This document shows positions 26,913 to 35,289 of a DNA stretch of 64,000 nucleotides, piece after piece. Every line of letters begins with the position of its first letter. Positions within the stretch are counted from its first letter, which is position 1. Made by a program: the position numbers and the translations under genes. A model generated the notes under the pieces. The model was not told the origin of the DNA, made no database searches, and saw nothing but the letters and a program-made list of their open reading frames with translations. This DNA is from Pandoraea aquatica (GTDB taxonomy: Bacteria > Pseudomonadota > Gammaproteobacteria > Burkholderiales > Burkholderiaceae): NCBI RefSeq assembly GCF_902459565.1, contig NZ_CABPSN010000002.1:930001-994000 (forward strand). The letters run 5' to 3'.

Positions 26913-27491
26913 TCAGGGCATCAGCACCTTGTCCACGACGTGAATCACGCCGTTGGACTGGAACACGTCGCCGATGGTGACTTTGGCGACGTTGCCTTTG
27001 TCATCGGTGACGGTCAAACCATTACCGCTCTGCTGGACGGTCAGCGAGTCGCCTTCCACGGTCTTGAGCATCGCCTTGCCGCCACCGCTTTTCACCATGC
27101 CCATCAGTTCTTGTGCGCCCAGCTTGCCGGGGACGACGTGATACGTCAGCACCTTGACCAGTGTCGGCTTGTTCTCCGGTTTGAGCAGCGTGTCGACGGT
27201 GCCGGCGGGAAGCGCGGCAAAGGCCTCGTTGGTCGGCGCGAAGACGGTGAACGGCCCCGGCCCGGACAGCGTGTCGACGAGACCGCCTGCCTTCACGGCC
27301 GCGACCAGTGTTGTGTGGTCCTTCGAGTTCACGGCGTTTTCGACGATGTTCTTCGATGGGTACATCGCCGCCCCGCCCACCATGACGGTCTTCTCGCTGC
27401 CGTCCATCGACGCCGCTGTGGCGTGCATGCCCGGGAAGTAACCGGCGGCGAGAAGTACCAGCAGAAATCCACCAAATCGTTGCGTTCTCAT
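26913..27491 (-). CDS. Secreted fasciclin (FAS1) domain protein
   Basis: 192 residues: a signal peptide (about 1-27, core GFLLVLLAAGYF, site near HATAA) and one FAS1 domain. The H1 motif GPFTVFAPTNEAFAALP (around residues 94-110) and the H2-type segment VLTYHVVPGKL are intact. FAS1 proteins mediate adhesion or polymer binding outside the cell. It is divergent from an ECF sigma/anti-sigma pair, exactly as MPT70/MPT83-type fasciclin proteins accompany SigK/RskA in mycobacteria, so it is the most likely regulon member. Confidence 0.92.
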   Translation of the reverse strand: MRTQRFGGFLLVLLAAGYFPGMHATAASMDGSEKTVMVGGAAMYPSKNIVENAVNSKDHTTLVAAVKAGGLVDTLSGPGPFTVFAPTNEAFAALPAGTVDTLLKPENKPTLVKVLTYHVVPGKLGAQELMGMVKSGGGKAMLKTVEGDSLTVQQSGNGLTVTDDKGNVAKVTIGDVFQSNGVIHVVDKVLMP

Positions 27492-27510
27492 GTCTTCACC
27501 CGTTCTATAG

Positions 27511-27524
27511 CGCTTCGCGAAGCG
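27511..27524. promoter_or_regulatory. 14-bp perfect palindrome upstream of the fasciclin gene
   Basis: CGCTTCGCGAAGCG begins 20 bp upstream of the fasciclin start codon. It may be an operator or an RNA hairpin in the leader. An ECF-type -35/-10 pair could not be identified with certainty. Confidence 0.45.
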
Positions 27525-27779
27525 GAAGCAACGACAAATACGAGTCGACTTCGTCGTCGGATGCGAAGGCGCAAAAAGATGCGCTTGTCGTGGAGAGGAC
27601 AGGGAGAATAGCGGGCGCGGTGCATCCGCGCGGGCTCCCCGCTCGTATGTGTGGACAGGTACGCCGTTCCCCGCTCGTCGCGCGAATGGCTGAATTGTCG
27701 AGGCATCTCCCGACGGGAGGCGAAGGTGCTATATTCCGCTGAACTCCACCGTAGTGATTTTCGCGAGTGCCTTACACGC

Positions 27780-28394
27780 ATGAACGAGTCCCGGGAAAAC
27801 GAAGATCAGCCACGCTCAGCATCTGCACAACCGCCTGCGGACGCGGCACGCATGGCTGCGCGCGAGGAGCTAGGCGCGCTGCTGAGCGCCGTCGCGAACG
27901 AAGATCGCGAGGCGTTCGCCGCGCTCTATCGAAAGACGTCTGCACGGATCTTCGGCGTGATCCTGCGCATGGTGTCCGACCGTGCGGAAGCCGAGGATCT
28001 GCTGCAGGACGTCTACGTCAACGTGTGGCGGCGAGCTTCGGCATTCGATGCCACCCGTGGCACGGCGATGACCTGGCTGATTACGCTGGCTCGCAACCGC
28101 GTGATCGACCGCCTGCGGCAGTCTCGCGAAGCGTCGCTAGACGAGGACCACGCTCTCAATATCCCCGCCGAGACCCCCTCGCCGTTGCGGATGGCGGAGG
28201 CCAGCGAAGCACGGCGTCGGCTGGAACACTGTCTGCAACTTCTTCCGCCACAACAACGCAATGCCGTGTGCGAGGCATTTTTCAGCGGGCTGGCATACAG
28301 CGAGCTTGCGGAGCGCCTTGCCGTCCCGCTCGGCACCGTGAAGAGCTGGATACGTCGCAGCCTAATGCAGCTAAAACGGTGTCTTGAGCCATGA
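27780..28394 (+). CDS. ECF RNA polymerase sigma factor (SigK/RpoE-like)
   Basis: 204 residues from the ATG at 27780. Region 2 spans about residues 43-105 (AALYRKTSARIFGVILRM, then DLLQDVYVNVWRRASAFD) and region 4 about 140-200, with the HTH at YSELAERLAVPLGTVKSWIRR. Sequence type is the SigK group. The stop overlaps the anti-sigma start by 4 bp, so the two are made together. Directs polymerase to the fasciclin gene and possibly to its own promoter. Confidence 0.9.
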   Translation: MNESRENEDQPRSASAQPPADAARMAAREELGALLSAVANEDREAFAALYRKTSARIFGVILRMVSDRAEAEDLLQDVYVNVWRRASAFDATRGTAMTWLITLARNRVIDRLRQSREASLDEDHALNIPAETPSPLRMAEASEARRRLEHCLQLLPPQQRNAVCEAFFSGLAYSELAERLAVPLGTVKSWIRRSLMQLKRCLEP

Positions 28395-29137
28395 ACACGC
28401 CCGCGCATTCCGACGACGATCTGCGTTGCGCCGAGCACGTGCTCGGCGTGATGGAGGCGGACGAACGTCTGGCGCTGGAGCGGGAGGCATTGGCGAATCC
28501 GGCATTACAGGCGCAACTGACGTTCTGGCAGGATCGTCTGACGCCGCTGACCGAAGACTTGCCGCACGAAGCGCCACCAGATCGAGTGTGGCAGCGTGTC
28601 GAGCAGGCGATCCGGTCGACGCAACCGGGTGCAACAACCCGTGCGATGCCACATGCGCCGCCGGTTGAGCTCTGGGACTCTCTGCCACTGTGGCGATGGC
28701 TGGGCATCGGTGCGAGCGTTGCGGCGCTGGTGCTGCTTGCCGTGGCGCTCAAGTTCGCCTTGCCGGGTGGCGCGCCGACGCCATCCGTCTCGCTCAACTA
28801 TCGCGTCGCAACCATCGCGCGGCAGGATGGCGTTGCACATTGGACTGCGACCATCGCGTCGCAACAGGATCAGTTGCTCATTGTCCCCGCAACCCATCCC
28901 ACGATTGCCGCAGACAAGGTGACGGAGTTGTGGCTAGTGCAGGGGGATGCCAAACCCGTCCCGCTCGGCGTTTTCGATCCCGCACAAACGGTGACGATCC
29001 CGCTGTCTCGCACGACGGCCGACGCGCTGCGCGGTACCGCCGCTGTCCTCGCCGTCTCCCTCGAACCGCCTGGGGGATCGCCCACCGGGCAACCGACCGG
29101 CCCTGTCATCGCGACGGGGGCGCTTCATCCGGCTTGA
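28391..29137 (+). CDS. RskA-type transmembrane anti-sigma factor
   Basis: 248 residues. The cytoplasmic N-terminal sigma-binding domain has the RskA/anti-sigma-K opening CAEHVLGVMEADERLALERE. One membrane segment follows (WLGIGASVAALVLLAVALKF, about 100-119), then a periplasmic RskA domain (LLIVPATHPTIAADKVTELW...). It holds the co-translated sigma factor until a signal triggers proteolysis. Immediately follows the sigma gene with a 4-bp overlap. Confidence 0.9.
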   Translation: MNTPAHSDDDLRCAEHVLGVMEADERLALEREALANPALQAQLTFWQDRLTPLTEDLPHEAPPDRVWQRVEQAIRSTQPGATTRAMPHAPPVELWDSLPLWRWLGIGASVAALVLLAVALKFALPGGAPTPSVSLNYRVATIARQDGVAHWTATIASQQDQLLIVPATHPTIAADKVTELWLVQGDAKPVPLGVFDPAQTVTIPLSRTTADALRGTAAVLAVSLEPPGGSPTGQPTGPVIATGALHPA

Positions 29138-29205: not shown

Positions 29206-29218
29206 TGAATTTTGCTCA
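29206..29218. promoter_or_regulatory. MetR-type box upstream of the metR-like gene
   Basis: TGAA-TTTTG-CTCA matches the MetR consensus TGAA-N5-TTCA in 7 of 8 defined positions and lies just 6 bp before the start codon of the LysR gene. It supports autoregulation, the normal behaviour of MetR. Confidence 0.6.
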
Positions 29219-29224
29219 TCCATC

Positions 29225-30115
29225 ATGCTTGACCGTATCCATTTGTCCATCGTTCAGGAGGTGGAAAAGCAGGGGTCGCTGACCGCCGCCGCAGGTGTGC
29301 TGCACGTAACGCAGTCGGCGCTCAGCCACAGCATGAAGAAGTTGGAGCAGCAGTTGGGCACCAACATCTGGTTGCGCGAAGGCCGAAGCCTGCGTCTGAC
29401 GCAGGCCGGTCAATACTTGCTGGCCGTGGCCAACCGGGTCTTGCCGCAACTGGATCTGGCCGAAGAACGCTTGCAGCAGTTCGCGCAGGGTGAGCGGGGC
29501 GCGCTGCGCATCGGCATGGAGTGCCACCCTTGCTACCAGTGGCTGCTCAAGGTCGTGTCGCCCTATCTGGCCGCTTGGCCGGACGTCGATGTCGACGTCA
29601 AACAGAAATTCCAGTTCGGGGGCATCGGCGCGCTGTTCGGTTACGAGATCGACCTGCTGGTCACGCCCGATCCGCTAAACAAGCCCGGGCTCGTCTTCGA
29701 GCCGGTGTTCGATTACGAACAGGTGCTGGTCGTTGCCAGCAACCATGCGCTGGCCAAAGAGGAATACATCAAGCCCAAGCAACTGACCAACGAGGTGCTG
29801 GTGGCTTATCCGGTGCCGGTCGACCGTCTGGATATCTACAACATGTTCCTCACGCCGGCGGGCATCACACCTCGGCGTCATAAGCCTATCGAGACGACCG
29901 ACATCATGATGCAGATGGTCGCGAGCGGCCGGGGCGTGGCGGCGCTACCCCGCTGGCTGGTGCTGGAGTACGCGGACAAGATGGATGTCGTGCCCGTTCG
30001 GCTGGGGAAGAACGGCATCGCCAAACACATCTATCTGGGCGCGCGCGAGGCCGATATGGGTACCGATTACCTGCGCGCCTTTATCGAGCAGGCGAAGAAG
30101 CCCGCCAAGGCCTGA
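29225..30115 (+). CDS. metR: MetR-like LysR-family regulator of methionine synthesis
   Basis: 296 residues. The HTH (1-62, LDRIHLSIVQEVEKQGSLTA) and the effector domain with the central segment RIGMECHPCYQWLLKVVSPYL resemble MetR, whose coinducer is homocysteine. The MetR boxes before it (29206) and before the following queH/mesX/mesD run (30137) back the assignment. Same strand as that run, 135 bp away. MetR normally activates metE; here no full metE is present, and the core synthase MesD is the apparent target. Confidence 0.87.
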   Translation: MLDRIHLSIVQEVEKQGSLTAAAGVLHVTQSALSHSMKKLEQQLGTNIWLREGRSLRLTQAGQYLLAVANRVLPQLDLAEERLQQFAQGERGALRIGMECHPCYQWLLKVVSPYLAAWPDVDVDVKQKFQFGGIGALFGYEIDLLVTPDPLNKPGLVFEPVFDYEQVLVVASNHALAKEEYIKPKQLTNEVLVAYPVPVDRLDIYNMFLTPAGITPRRHKPIETTDIMMQMVASGRGVAALPRWLVLEYADKMDVVPVRLGKNGIAKHIYLGAREADMGTDYLRAFIEQAKKPAKA

Positions 30116-30136
30116 CGCCTCGTTGTAGCGTTCTGT

Positions 30137-30202
30137 ATGAACGGTATTCATGGAAATATGAGAATTTATCGATTTTCATAATGGTGGGGTGGGCACCATA
30201 AT
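30137..30202 (+). promoter_or_regulatory. Perfect MetR box with LysR-activated promoter
   Basis: ATGAA-CGGTA-TTCAT (30137-30151) contains the exact MetR consensus TGAA-N5-TTCA. Downstream, TTTTCA (30173-30178), an 18-bp spacer and CATAAT (30197-30202) make a weak promoter. The box centre would be near -65, the standard activation position for LysR regulators. A degenerate second dyad (TATGAGAA/TTTTCATA, about 30158-30180) covers the -35 area. Confidence 0.75.
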
Positions 30203-30250
30203 CCGAAGCTCTTAGTCCGACGTAAGCGGGCGTTATTCATGGAGCTTCTC

Positions 30251-30922
30251 ATGGCGTCCGCAGCCGAACGCAAGCCATTGGCATTACCCGGCGGGCACAA
30301 GAAGGTGCTGCTGCACTCATGCTGCGCGCCGTGCTCCGGTGAAGTCATGGAAGCCATTCAGGCTTCCGGCATCGACTTCACGATCTTCTTCTACAACCCG
30401 AATATCCATCCGCTCAAGGAATACGAACTTCGCAAGAACGAGAACATCCGTTTTGCCGAGAAGTTCGGGATTCCGTTCGTCGACGCCGATTACGACCGCG
30501 ATAACTGGTTCGAACGTGCCAAAGGCATGGAGCACGAACCGGAGCGCGGCGTGCGTTGCACGATGTGCTTCGACATGCGCTTCGAGCGCACCGCGCTGTA
30601 CGCCCATGAACATGGCTTTCCGGTCATCACGAGTTCGCTCGGGATCTCGCGCTGGAAGAACATGCAGCAGATCAACGATTGCGGCGTGCGTGCCGCGTCT
30701 CACTATCCCGACATGCTGTACTGGGAATACAACTGGCGCAAAGGCGGCGGGTCCGCCCGCATGATCGAGATCAGCAAGCGCGAGAACTTCTATCAGCAAG
30801 AGTATTGCGGCTGCGTCTATTCGCTGCGCGACACGAATAAGCATCGTGTGGAAAACGGTCGTGAGCGCATTCAGCTCGGCGTGACGTTCTACGGTGACGA
30901 CACCGCAGAACAGGGCAAGTAA
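30251..30922 (+). CDS. queH: Epoxyqueuosine reductase QueH
   Basis: 223 residues from the ATG at 30251, which has GGAG 6 bp upstream; the ATG 12 bp earlier lacks a site. Non-B12 enzyme for the last step of queuosine tRNA modification. Metal and Fe-S ligand candidates are all present: C24-C25 and C28 (HSCCAPC), C103/C106 (RCTMC) and C186/C188 (YCGC). It lies first in a run with mesX and mesD (33 bp and 27 bp gaps), so it is probably MetR-controlled, which is unusual for a queuosine gene. QueF, an earlier enzyme in the same pathway, is encoded 13 kb away. Confidence 0.92.
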
Positions 30923-30955
30923 GTTCCAATTTCAGAATCAGAGCGTCAGATCATC

Positions 30956-31939
30956 ATGAGCCAAGATTTCACATTCGCCATCAAGCGCATTAGTTTCGAC
31001 GAGGACTATCGTCCGTCGGACAATACGCGCATCACGACCAACTTCGCCAATTTGGCGCGTGGCAGCAGCCGTCAGGAAAACCTGCGCAACACCCTCCAGA
31101 TGATCGACAACCGTTTCAATGCGCTGGCGCATTGGGACAATCCGAAGGGCGACCGTTACACCGTCAAGCTCGACATCATTTCCGTCGAAATGAGCATTGG
31201 CGGTGAGAGTCATGGAAGCGCGCTGCCGCTGATCGAAATACTGAAAACCAGCATCTTCGACAAGAAGAACAACGTGCTGATCGACGGCATGGCGGGGAAC
31301 AACTTCTCGTCGTACGTGCGCGATTACGACTTCAGCGTGCTCCTGCTGGCGCATAACAAGGATCAGCCGAAGTTCGGCACGCCGGAGAATTTCGGCGACC
31401 TGCATGGCAAGTTGTTCAGGGCGTTCGTGAGTTCGGACGCTTACAAGGCCAACTTCAACAAGCAGCCTGTCATTTGCCTGAGCGTATCGAGCACGCGTAC
31501 CTATCGTCGGACGGCCAATGTGCACCCTGTGCTGGGCACCGAATACTTGCAGGACGAGTATTCGCTCACCGACGAATACTTCGCGAAGATGGGCTTGCGA
31601 GTTCGCTATTTCATGCCGCGCAATAGCGTCGCGCCTTTGGCTTTCTATTTCTCCGGCGACTTGCTGGGCGATTACACGGATCTCGAACTGATCAGCACCA
31701 TCAGCACGATGGACACGTTCCAGAAGATCTATCGCCCCGAGATTTACAACGCGAATTCCGCCGCCGGGGAATCCTATCAGCCGAGTCTGAAGCATCAGGA
31801 TTACTCGCTGACTCGCATTGTCTACGATCGAGAAGAACGTAGCCGTCTGGCTATCGAGCAGGGAAAGTTTGTTGAGGAACACTTCGTCAAACCCTACCGC
31901 GCAACGCTTGATCAGTGGTCCGCTAATTACGCTCATTGA
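30956..31939 (+). CDS. mesX: DUF1852 protein, MesX (needed for MesD methionine synthase)
   Basis: 327 residues that match the DUF1852 family: IKRISFDEDYRPSDNTRITT near the N-terminus and the conserved stretches NNVLIDGMAGNNFSSYVRD and YTDLELISTISTMDTFQKIY. This family always accompanies MesD in aerobic bacteria and was shown genetically to be needed, together with oxygen, for MesD to make methionine. The reaction is unknown, and I see no cofactor motif. It could supply the methyl donor by an oxygenase-type step. Confidence 0.88.
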   Translation: MSQDFTFAIKRISFDEDYRPSDNTRITTNFANLARGSSRQENLRNTLQMIDNRFNALAHWDNPKGDRYTVKLDIISVEMSIGGESHGSALPLIEILKTSIFDKKNNVLIDGMAGNNFSSYVRDYDFSVLLLAHNKDQPKFGTPENFGDLHGKLFRAFVSSDAYKANFNKQPVICLSVSSTRTYRRTANVHPVLGTEYLQDEYSLTDEYFAKMGLRVRYFMPRNSVAPLAFYFSGDLLGDYTDLELISTISTMDTFQKIYRPEIYNANSAAGESYQPSLKHQDYSLTRIVYDREERSRLAIEQGKFVEEHFVKPYRATLDQWSANYAH

Positions 31940-31966
31940 CTCACTTAAAACGCAAGGTCATTCATC

Positions 31967-32995
31967 GTGAAAAAATTGTTGCCGACTTCGACTGCTGGTA
32001 GTTTGCCGAAACCGTCCTGGCTCGCAGAACCCGAGAAACTCTGGTCGCCGTGGAAGCTGGAAGGTGAAGAATTGGTGCAGGGCAAGCAAGATGCGCTGCG
32101 TTTGTCTCTGCAAGAGCAACAACACGCGGGCATCGATATCGTCAGCGACGGCGAGCAAACGCGTCAGCATTTCGTGACGACGTTTATCGAACACCTCGAC
32201 GGCGTCGATTTCAACAATCGTCAGACCGTGCGAATTCGTGACCGCTACGACGCGAGCGTGCCGACAGTCGTGGGTGCTGTCGCCCGCCAAAAGCCGGTGT
32301 TCGTCGAAGACGCGAAGTTCCTGCGCGCGCAAACTAAGCAACCGATCAAGTGGGCGCTGCCCGGCCCGATGACGATGATCGACACGCTGTACGACGATCA
32401 TTACAAGAGCCGTGAAAAGCTGGCCTGGGAATTCGCAAAGATCCTCAATGAGGAAGCGAGGGAACTGGAAGCGGCAGGCGTCGACATCATTCAATTCGAC
32501 GAGCCGGCTTTCAACGTCTTCTTCGACGAAGTCAACGAATGGGGCGTGGCGACGCTGGAGCGCGCCATTGAAGGCCTGAAGTGCGAAACGGCCGTTCACA
32601 TTTGCTACGGCTATGGCATCAAGGCCAATACGGACTGGAAGAAGTCGCTGGGTTCGGAATGGCGTCAATACGAAGAAGCCTTCCCGAAGCTGCAAAAATC
32701 CAGCATCGACATGATCTCGCTGGAATGCCACAACTCGCATGTGCCCATCGATCTGATCGAACTCATTCGCGGCAAGAAGGTGATGGTCGGAGCCATCGAC
32801 GTAGCGTCCGAAACCATTGAAACGCCGGAAGAGGTCGCCAGCACGCTGCGCAAGGCGTTGAAGTTTGTCGATGCCGACAAGCTCTTCCCGTGCACCAACT
32901 GCGGTATGGCACCGCTGCCCCGTTCGGTGGCACGCGGCAAGCTGGCTGCACTGAGTGCCGGCGCGGAAATCGTGCGTCGAGAACTGTCGAACTAA
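31967..32995 (+). CDS. mesD: Core methionine synthase MesD (folate-independent)
   Basis: 342 residues, equivalent only to the C-terminal catalytic half of MetE, whose full length is about 750. The zinc ligands are complete: H211 and C213 (VHICYG), E253 (SLECHNS) and C312 (PCTNCG). The homocysteine site opening PTSTAGSLPKPSWL is also intact. The folate-binding N-terminal half is absent, not broken. Starts at GTG 31967 with AAGG upstream. Transfers a methyl group to homocysteine; the donor in vivo is unresolved. Forms a run with mesX and a flavin reductase. Confidence 0.9.
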   Translation: MKKLLPTSTAGSLPKPSWLAEPEKLWSPWKLEGEELVQGKQDALRLSLQEQQHAGIDIVSDGEQTRQHFVTTFIEHLDGVDFNNRQTVRIRDRYDASVPTVVGAVARQKPVFVEDAKFLRAQTKQPIKWALPGPMTMIDTLYDDHYKSREKLAWEFAKILNEEARELEAAGVDIIQFDEPAFNVFFDEVNEWGVATLERAIEGLKCETAVHICYGYGIKANTDWKKSLGSEWRQYEEAFPKLQKSSIDMISLECHNSHVPIDLIELIRGKKVMVGAIDVASETIETPEEVASTLRKALKFVDADKLFPCTNCGMAPLPRSVARGKLAALSAGAEIVRRELSN

Positions 32996-33115
32996 GTTCT
33001 GAGCCATCCGGCGCAAGCCAGCCCGTAAGACGTTGTGGCCGATCTGAAAGGATCGGGTGCACGACGGACGGGTTGGTTTGTGCCAGTTGAATTGCCCCCG
33101 GTATTTCCCCCAGCT

Positions 33116-33625
33116 ATGTCACTTCCCAGTCCGGCCATCGAGCCACTGCGCTTTCGCGAAGCGCTCGGGCACTACGCCTCCGGTATCACGATCATTACGT
33201 CGCACATCGACGACGAGCCGCTAGGCTTCACCTGTCAGTCGTTCTACAGCGTGTCGACGAATCCGCCGCTGGTGTCGTTCAGCGTCATGGCTACGTCGGC
33301 CAGTTATCCCAAGATCCGTCAGGCGGGACGCTTCGCCGTCAACATCCTCTCGGGAGCGCAAGCGGACATTTCCAACCAGTTCGCCCGGCGAGGCACGGAC
33401 AAATGGCGTGGCGTCGACTGGCAGATTTCGCCGCTGGGCAATCCCATCATTCCGGGCAGTCTTCACTGGCTGGATTGCGAAATCTACGCGGAGCACGCCG
33501 CAGGCGATCACATGATTGTGATCGGTGAAGTCAAAGCGTTAGACGCACAGAACGCTGCGGCGAATCAGCCGTTGCTGTATTTCAAAGGGCAGTATCGCAA
33601 CATCGCCGATCACAACGGGGTGTGA
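33116..33625 (+). CDS. Flavin reductase family protein
   Basis: 169 residues from the ATG at 33116; a GTG at 33035 would add 27 residues, and neither start has a clear ribosome site. Single flavin-reductase domain: FREALGHYASGITIITSHID, TCQSFYSVSTNPPLVSFSV and AVNIL. Provides reduced FMN or FAD to an oxygenase. It lies 120 bp after mesD on the same strand. As MesD activity needs oxygen and DUF1852, this reductase is a candidate third component; that link is inference. Confidence 0.88.
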   Translation: MSLPSPAIEPLRFREALGHYASGITIITSHIDDEPLGFTCQSFYSVSTNPPLVSFSVMATSASYPKIRQAGRFAVNILSGAQADISNQFARRGTDKWRGVDWQISPLGNPIIPGSLHWLDCEIYAEHAAGDHMIVIGEVKALDAQNAAANQPLLYFKGQYRNIADHNGV

Positions 33626-33637
33626 GCGAGGGCGCGA

Positions 33638-35092
33638 TTATTTTTCCGGTGTCGAGTCGACGACCGCGAACCATTCGGGCCACGAGCTTCGGTGCCGGTT
33701 GCCTGCTTCGATGTTGGGAATGAGTGTGTGCGCGAGCACGGGCAATTGATCGACTGACTTGGCGATCCGGTATTTGACGCTGTGGACACACTCGCGGTCG
33801 CCAAACTCGCAACGATTGAGCCGGGTGCCGCCACAGGGGCCGTTTGCCAGGCCTTTCGGGCACGTCTCGGGGCATACGTAGAGGGTGTCCTGCAAGCGGC
33901 AGTGTCCGCAGGTATCGCAGCCGACCAGCGGCCGTTTCAGCGTTCGTTCGACTGCATGAAGGGCTCGCGCTGCGACGCCTGACTTCCAGAGTGGCTGCGA
34001 CACGGTCCAGCCGAACGCTTTGCCAAGCCATCCCGTGCGGTTGAAGAACTGTTCATGCACGGACGAGAGCAGCGTGTATCGCAGCCGCTCGCTGCGGGTC
34101 GCGACGACGTTTGACTGCCCCATCTCCCACGCGTCGGTGTCCGGCGCAAAGCAAACCGGCGACGCCCCCGGCATCTGCCAGCTTGCATGCCACCGTTCAT
34201 GCCAATCGGCCAGTGAGGTCACGCTGTCGCGCTGAACGGTGATCGCTTGCTCCAACGCAAGCAGCTCATCCAGCGTGTGCACACCGGACACGTGCACCCC
34301 GGCATACCCCATCCATTGCAGGCCGACGATCTGTAATGCCATGCGTTCGAGGGTTCGCGCGCTGGCGTAGTCCGGCGACACCTCTCGCTCCTTGCTCAGT
34401 AGCTCACGCATGGAGTCGGTGACGACGATGCCGGGCACGTTCTGCAGAACGGCCGCGCGCTTTTCGGTCAGTCGCATCACGCAGGCCATCATGCGTCGGC
34501 TGATGGGCTGAGCTGCCATCCATGTCTGCGCTTCCCGATGCTTGGCGGCATCGAAACCCAGTTGCAGGGTGAAGAAATCGGCACCCGCGAGCAGCTTCTT
34601 CTGCGCCTTAAGGTACTGCGCACCGCCTTCTTCTTCGCGATATTTGAAGGGATTCAACGCTGCGCCCAGCAACCAGTCGGGGCATTGCTCGCGGGCGATT
34701 TGCAACGCGGGCACCGACTCCAGATAGCGCACTGGTTTCTGACCGGGATGGTGGCCCGGCAGGCGGTCCCCGCTGAGCAACAGCAATTGATTCAGCCCCT
34801 GAGCCTTCATCGACGCGATGTGACGAATCAGGTCTGCGCGCTCACGATCCTTGCCGGAGAAATGCAGTAGCGATGAGGCCGGGTTGCCTGACGCGTCCGC
34901 GCCTTCCAGAGGACTCAGGTCCGAGTGCAGGCCAACGCGATCGGCGAAGGCGGGCAGCAGCGGCCAGCCCGCCAGATGCCCGCGTTGCAGGATCTGCGCA
35001 AGGGAAGCCAAACGTGAAGGGGATTGTTGAGGAACGACCTCTAGCACGCAGACGAAATGGCCTTCGTTCAGCGCCTGTTTCAATGCACTCAA
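33638..35092 (-). CDS. MetF-like methylenetetrahydrofolate reductase fused to cysteine-rich MTHFR_C domain
   Basis: About 484 residues from the TTG at 35092. The frame is open to 35257, but the additional residues look non-coding, and the start is uncertain. The N-terminal TIM-barrel half resembles MetF: E18 in VCVLEVVPQQ, the LLLLSGDR loop, and the DFFTLQLGFD strand. The C-terminal part has GCDTCGHCRL (391-400), YVCPETCPKGLANGPCGG and RCEFG, the MTHFR_C (MetV-type) metal-binding motif. In acetogens this domain is a separate subunit paired with MetF. Converges on the flavin reductase with 12 bp between stops. Confidence 0.82.
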   Translation of the reverse strand: MSALKQALNEGHFVCVLEVVPQQSPSRLASLAQILQRGHLAGWPLLPAFADRVGLHSDLSPLEGADASGNPASSLLHFSGKDRERADLIRHIASMKAQGLNQLLLLSGDRLPGHHPGQKPVRYLESVPALQIAREQCPDWLLGAALNPFKYREEEGGAQYLKAQKKLLAGADFFTLQLGFDAAKHREAQTWMAAQPISRRMMACVMRLTEKRAAVLQNVPGIVVTDSMRELLSKEREVSPDYASARTLERMALQIVGLQWMGYAGVHVSGVHTLDELLALEQAITVQRDSVTSLADWHERWHASWQMPGASPVCFAPDTDAWEMGQSNVVATRSERLRYTLLSSVHEQFFNRTGWLGKAFGWTVSQPLWKSGVAARALHAVERTLKRPLVGCDTCGHCRLQDTLYVCPETCPKGLANGPCGGTRLNRCEFGDRECVHSVKYRIAKSVDQLPVLAHTLIPNIEAGNRHRSSWPEWFAVVDSTPEK

Positions 35093-35289
35093 GACAGCTC
35101 GATACCTTGTGAATCGGAGGAATGTCGTGGCCGCCGTCGTTGGGCGACGGGGTAGAGCAACGACAGCAAGGATGGCCGGCCAGCGAATCGGCGGCGCGGA
35201 AGCAGAACAATAGCGCGGGCGGGGGACGTGCGTCCAGCCGCAAGCCGTCGTGATCACCCGTGCTCGAATCCCCTACGCACCAAACGTGC

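Follow-up and report, generated by a model that had tools for sequence, protein, structure and literature searches.

A putative cobalamin-sparing operon in Pandoraea aquatica places queH beside the mesX-mesD methionine synthase

Why does a gene for the last step of queuosine synthesis stand at the head of a methionine synthase cluster, in a genome that holds other enzymes for both tasks? The question is raised by a five-gene locus of Pandoraea aquatica, which lies in a stretch of 64,000 nucleotides of contig NZ_CABPSN010000002.1 (positions 930,001 to 994,000, hereafter the window). The methionine synthase MetH and the enzyme QueG, which performs the last step of queuosine synthesis for tRNA, both require vitamin B12 (cobalamin). 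The locus encodes predicted B12-independent counterparts of the two, and sequence comparisons lead us to consider it probable that it is a cobalamin-sparing operon, a backup for MetH and QueG in a host that lacks the corrin synthesis enzyme CbiC. The position of queH is the most informative new feature of the locus. All five genes are intact and form a single run on the plus strand (29225-33625), with two MetR-type boxes, as follows.

29206..29218, strand not applicable: MetR-type box matching at 7 of 8 positions, TGAATTTTGCTCA, 5' of metR
29225..30115, plus strand: MetR-like LysR regulator (PF00126, PF03466; best NCBIfam model MetR, NF011950)
30138..30150, strand not applicable: TGAACGGTATTCA, an exact MetR box roughly 100 nt 5' of queH
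30239..30922, plus strand: queH, predicted B12-independent epoxyqueuosine reductase (PF02677, 221 bits)
30956..31939, plus strand: mesX (DUF1852), the required partner of MesD (PF08908, 610 bits)
31967..32995, plus strand: mesD, core methionine synthase lacking the folate domain (NF006589, 707 bits; 3RPD)
33116..33625, plus strand: flavin reductase (PF01613, 146 bits)

The spacers measure 123 nt between metR and queH, 33 nt between queH and mesX, 27 nt between mesX and mesD, and 120 nt from mesD to the ATG at 33116. A first-pass annotation, made from the letters of the DNA, had proposed that metR, queH, mesX, mesD, and the flavin reductase form one MetR-controlled module for folate-independent methionine synthesis. 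Its gene identities were borne out by Pfam and NCBIfam matches, and so was its MetR box. The regulator scored 228 bits against NF011950, its best NCBIfam model, and is called MetR-like here because the cut-off of that model is 382. The locus is not the sole methionine synthase of its host. The genome also has a complete two-domain metE (L134), metH (L010), and metF (L013), and MesX-MesD is therefore a further isozyme. The annotation had itself named a complete metE or metH, making the locus dispensable, as evidence against it; both genes are complete, and that objection is half made. The host genome carries queG as well, with a score over the cut-off, so that B12-dependent isozymes of the locus products, MetH and QueG, are present. 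No match to CbiC, used as a single marker of corrin synthesis, was found in the host genome. Because of this absence, the host probably cannot build the corrin ring and depends on external B12.

The catalytic domain of MetE spans the whole length of MesD (PF01717 over residues 5 to 329; NF006589 cut-off, 392 bits), which is close to PDB entry 3RPD. The motifs HIC at 211, SLEC at 251, and PCTNC at 308, which match the MetE motifs that hold the four zinc ligands, are in place, as are S12, E63, and D178, the homocysteine-binding residues assigned by comparison with 3RPD numbering. With these motifs present and PF01717 running from end to end, MesD keeps its zinc ligands and lacks the folate-binding half, as first annotated, and the DUF1852 neighbor proved to be a PF08908 gene 27 nt upstream. 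MesX matches that family, labeled "Putative oxygenase MesX" in Pfam, over its full length (positions 1 to 323 of 323). The annotated dependence of MesD on MesX and oxygen had already been published for relatives of the family (PMC7857596). In the same work, MesX-MesD relatives make methionine without B12 or methyl-folate, and mesD and mesX alone function in E. coli and rescue a metF mutant. Methyl-folate is disfavored as the methyl donor because of this rescue. C174 is the sole cysteine of MesX, and all 48 aligned rows share it along with H150 and H190. As the only cysteine, and an invariant one, C174 may be the natural candidate for a methyl carrier. A profile search against the PDB found no solved relative of MesX; entry 2grk (E value of 0.57) was rejected as a chance match. 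Two further observations concern these families. In genome G373 (L022 and L023), a second mesX is in two pieces, one with an internal stop, and an intact copy lies elsewhere in the genome. In Alcaligenes and Paraburkholderia oxyphila, a metR-like gene and mesX-mesD are accompanied by a gene of MetE length (L105, 4468-6759; L110, 4442-6736; L046, 1613-3919); these genes score like MetE against MesD and are candidate metE genes.

QueH and QueG catalyze the identical last step of queuosine synthesis, QueG with B12 and QueH without it, according to the available parts of two reports (PMC11906303 and PMC6461909). The QueH of the window matches Thermotoga maritima QueH (7LC5) with an E value of 3e-26, and its CC, RCxxC, and YCGC motifs are conserved. 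These motifs presumably form the iron-sulfur (Fe-S) and metal sites.

Of 150 genomes in the host family, 11 have QueH (10 of them over the cut-off), 9 have MesX, and 5 have both, a co-occurrence with a hypergeometric p of 9e-5 when kinship is ignored. In all five genomes that have both, queH neighbors mesX-mesD (the queH of G140 is a fragment). Four of the five other QueH genes over the cut-off stand beside a full-length metE (G016, G113, G144, and G137, the last with a fragmentary queH; the metE genes of G016 and G113 were verified by Pfam), and one, in G090, has neither neighbor. The QueH of G149, which is below the cut-off and contains stops, lay outside this neighbor survey. Because 9 of the 10 genes adjoin a B12-independent methionine synthase (5 mesX-mesD and 4 metE), QueH in the host family mostly travels with such an enzyme.

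All of these QueH genomes of the family also have QueG. In a class sample of 369 genomes, QueH was found in 58, namely that of the window, G373, and 56 others. No MesX, MesD, or MetE gene was found beside queH in any of these 56 within the stretch fetched, although several of the loci end near a contig edge (L188, 4.0 kb; L219, 3.1 kb), where a linked gene could be missed. QueG was absent or under the cut-off in 53 of the 56 (9 of the 53 had matches below the cut-off). In contrast, QueG was over the cut-off in 24 of 24 genomes examined for it, 19 of them linked. Linkage was present in 10 of 14 QueG-positive QueH genomes (10 from the family plus G373, G423, G442, and G486) compared to 0 of 53 QueG-negative ones (Fisher p of 4e-9 for 67 genomes, ignoring kinship).

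The presence of QueG in 19 of 19 linked genomes examined makes QueH dispensable for queuosine synthesis as long as B12 is available, and this would also suit an enzyme redirected to other work, its Fe-S and metal center serving MesX-MesD chemistry instead of queuosine synthesis. However, QueH is also linked to metE, where there is no MesX chemistry, its cysteine motifs match those of T. maritima QueH, and mesX-mesD function by themselves in E. coli (PMC7857596). We rejected a repurposed QueH on account of the metE linkage and regard it as extremely improbable.

The control element was examined next to these genes. The exact TGAA-N5-TTCA box at 30138-30150, first seen at annotation, was confirmed; it is the single copy in the window. 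Chance alone would supply 0.46 copies, and at least one copy appeared in 36 of 100 shuffles, so that taken by itself the box is weak evidence. The case for it comes from its conservation across mesX loci. We compared 94 such loci: the window itself, 13 loci of family and class genomes, and, out of 595 confirmed matches, the best 80. The set leans to close relatives. In the roughly 400 bp upstream, 36 of the 94 have an exact box (0.6 expected), and 76 have a box with at most one mismatch (14.4 expected); the expectations come from shuffles that preserve base composition only, with operon starts approximated by a standard length measured from the stop codon, and many box-bearing loci are related Pseudomonas copies or near relatives and hence not independent. 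The 7/8 box before metR, TGAATTTTGCTCA at 29206, was also recovered as annotated, so that the regulator's own gene has a box at 7 of 8 positions and the putative target gene queH an exact one. The annotated placement of the 30138 box near -65 of a promoter fared less well. A promoter-like site at 30173/30175-30202 fits this distance; such sites, 4 found against 2.1 ± 1.3 expected, are not clearly above chance. Leyn et al. 2014 had reconstructed PF08908-metE2 as a target of MetR (PMC4239095, available in part). In the same source, Moraxellaceae are described as lacking a MetR orthologue. Exact MetR boxes were nevertheless observed upstream of mesX in two Acinetobacter loci (L067 and L068), and because of the reported absence of MetR another regulator may read the MetR-type site there.

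Exact boxes also precede queH outside the mesX loci. They were found before 3 of 15 queH genes linked to mesX-mesD, 3 of 4 linked to metE, and 0 of 54 unlinked ones (0.44 expected, again from shuffles of base composition); in the three metE cases, G113, G144, and G137, the box is in the spacer between metE and queH. In the fourth, G016, a related MetR-like gene (490 bits) is located between queH and metE, and the metR-metE spacer has a MetR box with a mismatch. A further MetE-like protein of 391 amino acids (PF01717 only, 56 bits) is encoded at L129 8252-9427 in G016, and its gene ends 15 nt short of queH.

MetR is established as a homocysteine sensor in E. coli, Salmonella, and Vibrio. On the cobalamin-sparing reading, a shortage of B12 would stall MetH, and homocysteine would rise. 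MetR, sensing homocysteine, would then bind the 30138 box and switch on queH-mesX-mesD, perhaps with the flavin reductase, as one predicted transcript. MesX-MesD would supply methionine without B12 or methyl-folate, and QueH would sustain queuosine synthesis without B12. MesX would probably make the methyl donor in an oxygen-dependent reaction, with reduced flavin from the neighboring reductase, as has been proposed (PMC7857596). A response to B12 has been described in Acinetobacter baumannii, where B12 lowers the mRNA of DUF1852 (log2 of about -8) and that of a flavin reductase at a distance of two locus tags (log2 of -2.5; PMC12892962, available in part).

Several results weigh against this reading. 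The metE of the host is already B12 independent, which makes MesD a second backup. The regulator is under the NCBIfam cut-off for MetR. Of the linked genomes, 8 of 19 have CbiC, compared to 3 of 5 unlinked ones, indicating that the linkage does not track the loss of B12 synthesis and is not confined to nonproducers. G090, G423, G442, and G486 (contig of 3.1 kb) have both QueH and QueG without the link, and an independent-pairs test on the QueH tree had two pairs, too few to decide the correlation with QueG. A queH neighbor was found in 15 of the 94 mesX loci, leaving 79 without queH nearby, and 4 of the 9 family genomes with MesX have no QueH. The exact boxes before queH linked to mesX-mesD are confined to the window and its near kin L028 and L029; among the other 12 there are no exact boxes and 3 with one mismatch, compared to a box with one mismatch or none before 9 of the 54 unlinked genes. 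Because the boxes are inexact in these 12 loci, the case for predicted MetR control of queH comes from the host's own genus and the metE-linked genes. In G016, the upstream region of queH has no box, and the gene starts 15 nt after the PF01717 protein. In L036, L049, and L056, queH lies 3' of either mesD or the reductase and may lack a promoter of its own; the queH genes of L024 and L133 are broken or fragmentary.

The scarcity of queH among mesX loci and the inexact boxes in 12 of 15 would also be expected of an ordinary MetR-controlled MesX-MesD locus in which queH is a passenger, sharing the promoter and moved along with the cluster. The linked QueH genes fall in few clades, and the cluster has the features of transferred DNA: its guanine-plus-cytosine content is 0.573 compared to 0.628 for the window, and mesX occurs in 4 of 15 listed genomes of the same genus, the host included. 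However, a passenger does not readily account for linkage to metE as well as to mesX-mesD, in differing orientations, or for the exact boxes in three metE-queH spacers. The QueH tree (71 rows, with pieces under 200 bits, L024, L133, L219, L220, and L221, excluded) shows at least two changes of the mesX-mesD label, in Burkholderiales and in Pseudomonas, and the separate Pseudomonas pair of QueH genes is located 3' of the flavin reductase. We consider a passenger queH unlikely. Transfer of the cluster as a unit fits the low guanine-plus-cytosine content, the patchy spread in the genus, and the repetition of the order metR-queH-mesX-mesD-flavin reductase, followed by a convergent gene like that for methylenetetrahydrofolate reductase (MTHFR), in Burkholderia sp. 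Ac-20379 (L055). The kin recovered include the named Pandoraea loci L041 and L048, and L041 has the nearest named QueH in the tree.

The flavin reductase probably starts at the ATG at 33116 rather than at 33035, the start of the longer open reading frame; its nearest NCBIfam model is HsaB, and the score is below the HsaB cut-off. A flavin reductase neighbor of MesD has often been seen, and the enzyme has been proposed as a possible partner of MesX (PMC7857596). In the survey of MesD loci that the first-pass annotation suggested, 54 of the 94 had the slot 3' of mesD filled by a reductase, in every case on the strand of mesD. Forty-two of these resemble the reductase of the window, and 12 score just 39 to 53 bits against it; three of the distant type (L063, L066, and L101) were verified by Pfam. 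Because at least two distant kinds of reductase occupy the same slot, these sequences favor a functional tie to the mesD locus. The other 40 loci had no match in the slot, including L085 and L086, whose reductases after mesX-mesD were beyond the reach of the test (L086 was verified by Pfam), and L087 and L093, which end too early. A separate observation concerns L085, a record titled Bacillus subtilis; because its reductase and the one in Pseudochrobactrum L086 are nearly identical, the record is probably mislabeled or contaminated. The recurrence of distant reductases on the same strand would also agree with a stand-alone, folate-independent methionine synthase that has its own flavin reductase and serves as the main methionine route. 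The complete metE, metH, and metF of the same genome and the 40 loci without a slot match, four of them explained as above, make such a main route very unlikely.

Other bacteria carry an independent sign of B12 control at mesX. An Rfam scan of 44 mesX-bearing sources, some of them short contigs (e.g., L084, L093, and L102), found a cobalamin riboswitch near mesX in 7, all titled Rhizobium, Agrobacterium, Devosia, Ochrobactrum, or Rhizobiales. The riboswitch is directly 5' of mesX in L084 and L097. In L063, L079, L098, L107, and L109, it is on the opposite strand and heads to a metR-like gene, with a thioesterase gene in between in L107. L098 and L109 have a second cobalamin riboswitch 5' of genes for a B12-independent ribonucleotide reductase, beside mesX-mesD in these two rhizobia.

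L098 1164-5422, minus strand: nrdI-nrdE-nrdF with its own riboswitch (Pfam)
L109 2830-3946, minus strand: nrdI, recognized by sequence, with its own riboswitch

The scan of the whole window had no cobalamin riboswitch, nor had 36 other sources of the 44, which also counts against a B12-sparing role; Pseudochrobactrum L086 is among those scanned without one. We tentatively entertain, at somewhat less than even confidence, a wider picture in which MetR reads homocysteine as a proxy for B12 in bacteria that have no cobalamin riboswitch at these genes and extends the programme to tRNA (QueH for QueG), while in rhizobia the programme would be run by riboswitches and would add NrdIEF. In it, the window operon would be a transferable copy, and C174 of MesX may carry the methyl group.

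The surroundings of the locus include one recurrent neighbor.

33638..35257, minus strand: MTHFR-like protein with C-terminal DUF5981 (PF02219, 30 bits; PF12225, 70 bits)

Such a gene is near mesX in 8 of the 94 loci (the window, L034, L037, L040, L044, L047, L055, and L102), and its membership in the module is uncertain. It is seen beside mesX-mesD in several genera and in varying orientation, is split in two in L034, and accompanies an ordinary metF in the host genome. A different, short MTHFR-like gene (PF02219, 21 bits, under the cut-off) lies 3' of mesX-mesD in Rhizobium tropici PTD1 (L063 10071-10925, plus strand). On the other side, 5' of metR at 26913-29137 of the window, are genes for a Fasciclin-domain protein, an extracytoplasmic function sigma factor, and an RskA-type anti-sigma factor; sigma and anti-sigma genes are likewise upstream in G133 and G082.

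Much of this has been described before. The locus shares with the MesD and MesX of Price et al. 2021 (PMC7857596) the adjacency of the two families and the reductase neighbor, and metH and metE often co-occur with that system, as they do here; the main text of that paper mentions neither QueH, QueG, a riboswitch, nor queuosine. The MetR regulon of Leyn et al. 2014 (PMC4239095) has ATGAA-N5-TTCAT before metE and PF08908-metE2, and beta-proteobacterial MetR regulons consist mostly of metE and metR; its main text does not mention queH, queuosine, PF02677, DUF208, or COG1636. The core of the earlier interpretation (dependence on MesX and oxygen, a reductase partner, and MetR control) is thus already in print. 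Riboswitch-controlled B12-independent isozymes (PMC3766115 and PMC9600662, both available in part) follow a common logic, in which B12 sufficiency shuts the isozymes off; the window differs in its predicted control by a MetR box and in the isozymes, MesX-MesD and QueH. The available main text of PMC3766115 does not contain DUF1852 or COG1636, and that of PMC9600662 does not contain DUF1852, MesD, or QueH. As in the nonorthologous pair already described (PMC6461909 and PMC11906303, in the parts available), QueH is the B12-independent alternative to QueG. Elsewhere, however, QueH occurs without a QueG over the cut-off, as in the 53 class genomes, whereas here the two coexist and QueH stands beside a methionine synthase. 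In the open-access literature, we found no publication joining QueH with MetR or a cobalamin riboswitch with DUF1852. The methionine half is therefore known, and its tie to the tRNA half appears to be new.

If the cobalamin-sparing reading is right, the combination of a MetR box and a pair of B12-independent isozymes would be a genomic signature for finding further members of the programme, and the invariant cysteine of MesX would give a testable handle on the methyl donor question. The MesX-MesD locus should then matter under B12 scarcity or destruction, e.g., by nitrous oxide; MesD-bearing strains have been reported to be insensitive to nitrous oxide (PMC13059711, available in part). The reading would also account for genomes that keep both QueG and QueH, and the supply of B12 would feed into decoding, by way of tRNA queuosine, through a regulator of methionine synthesis.

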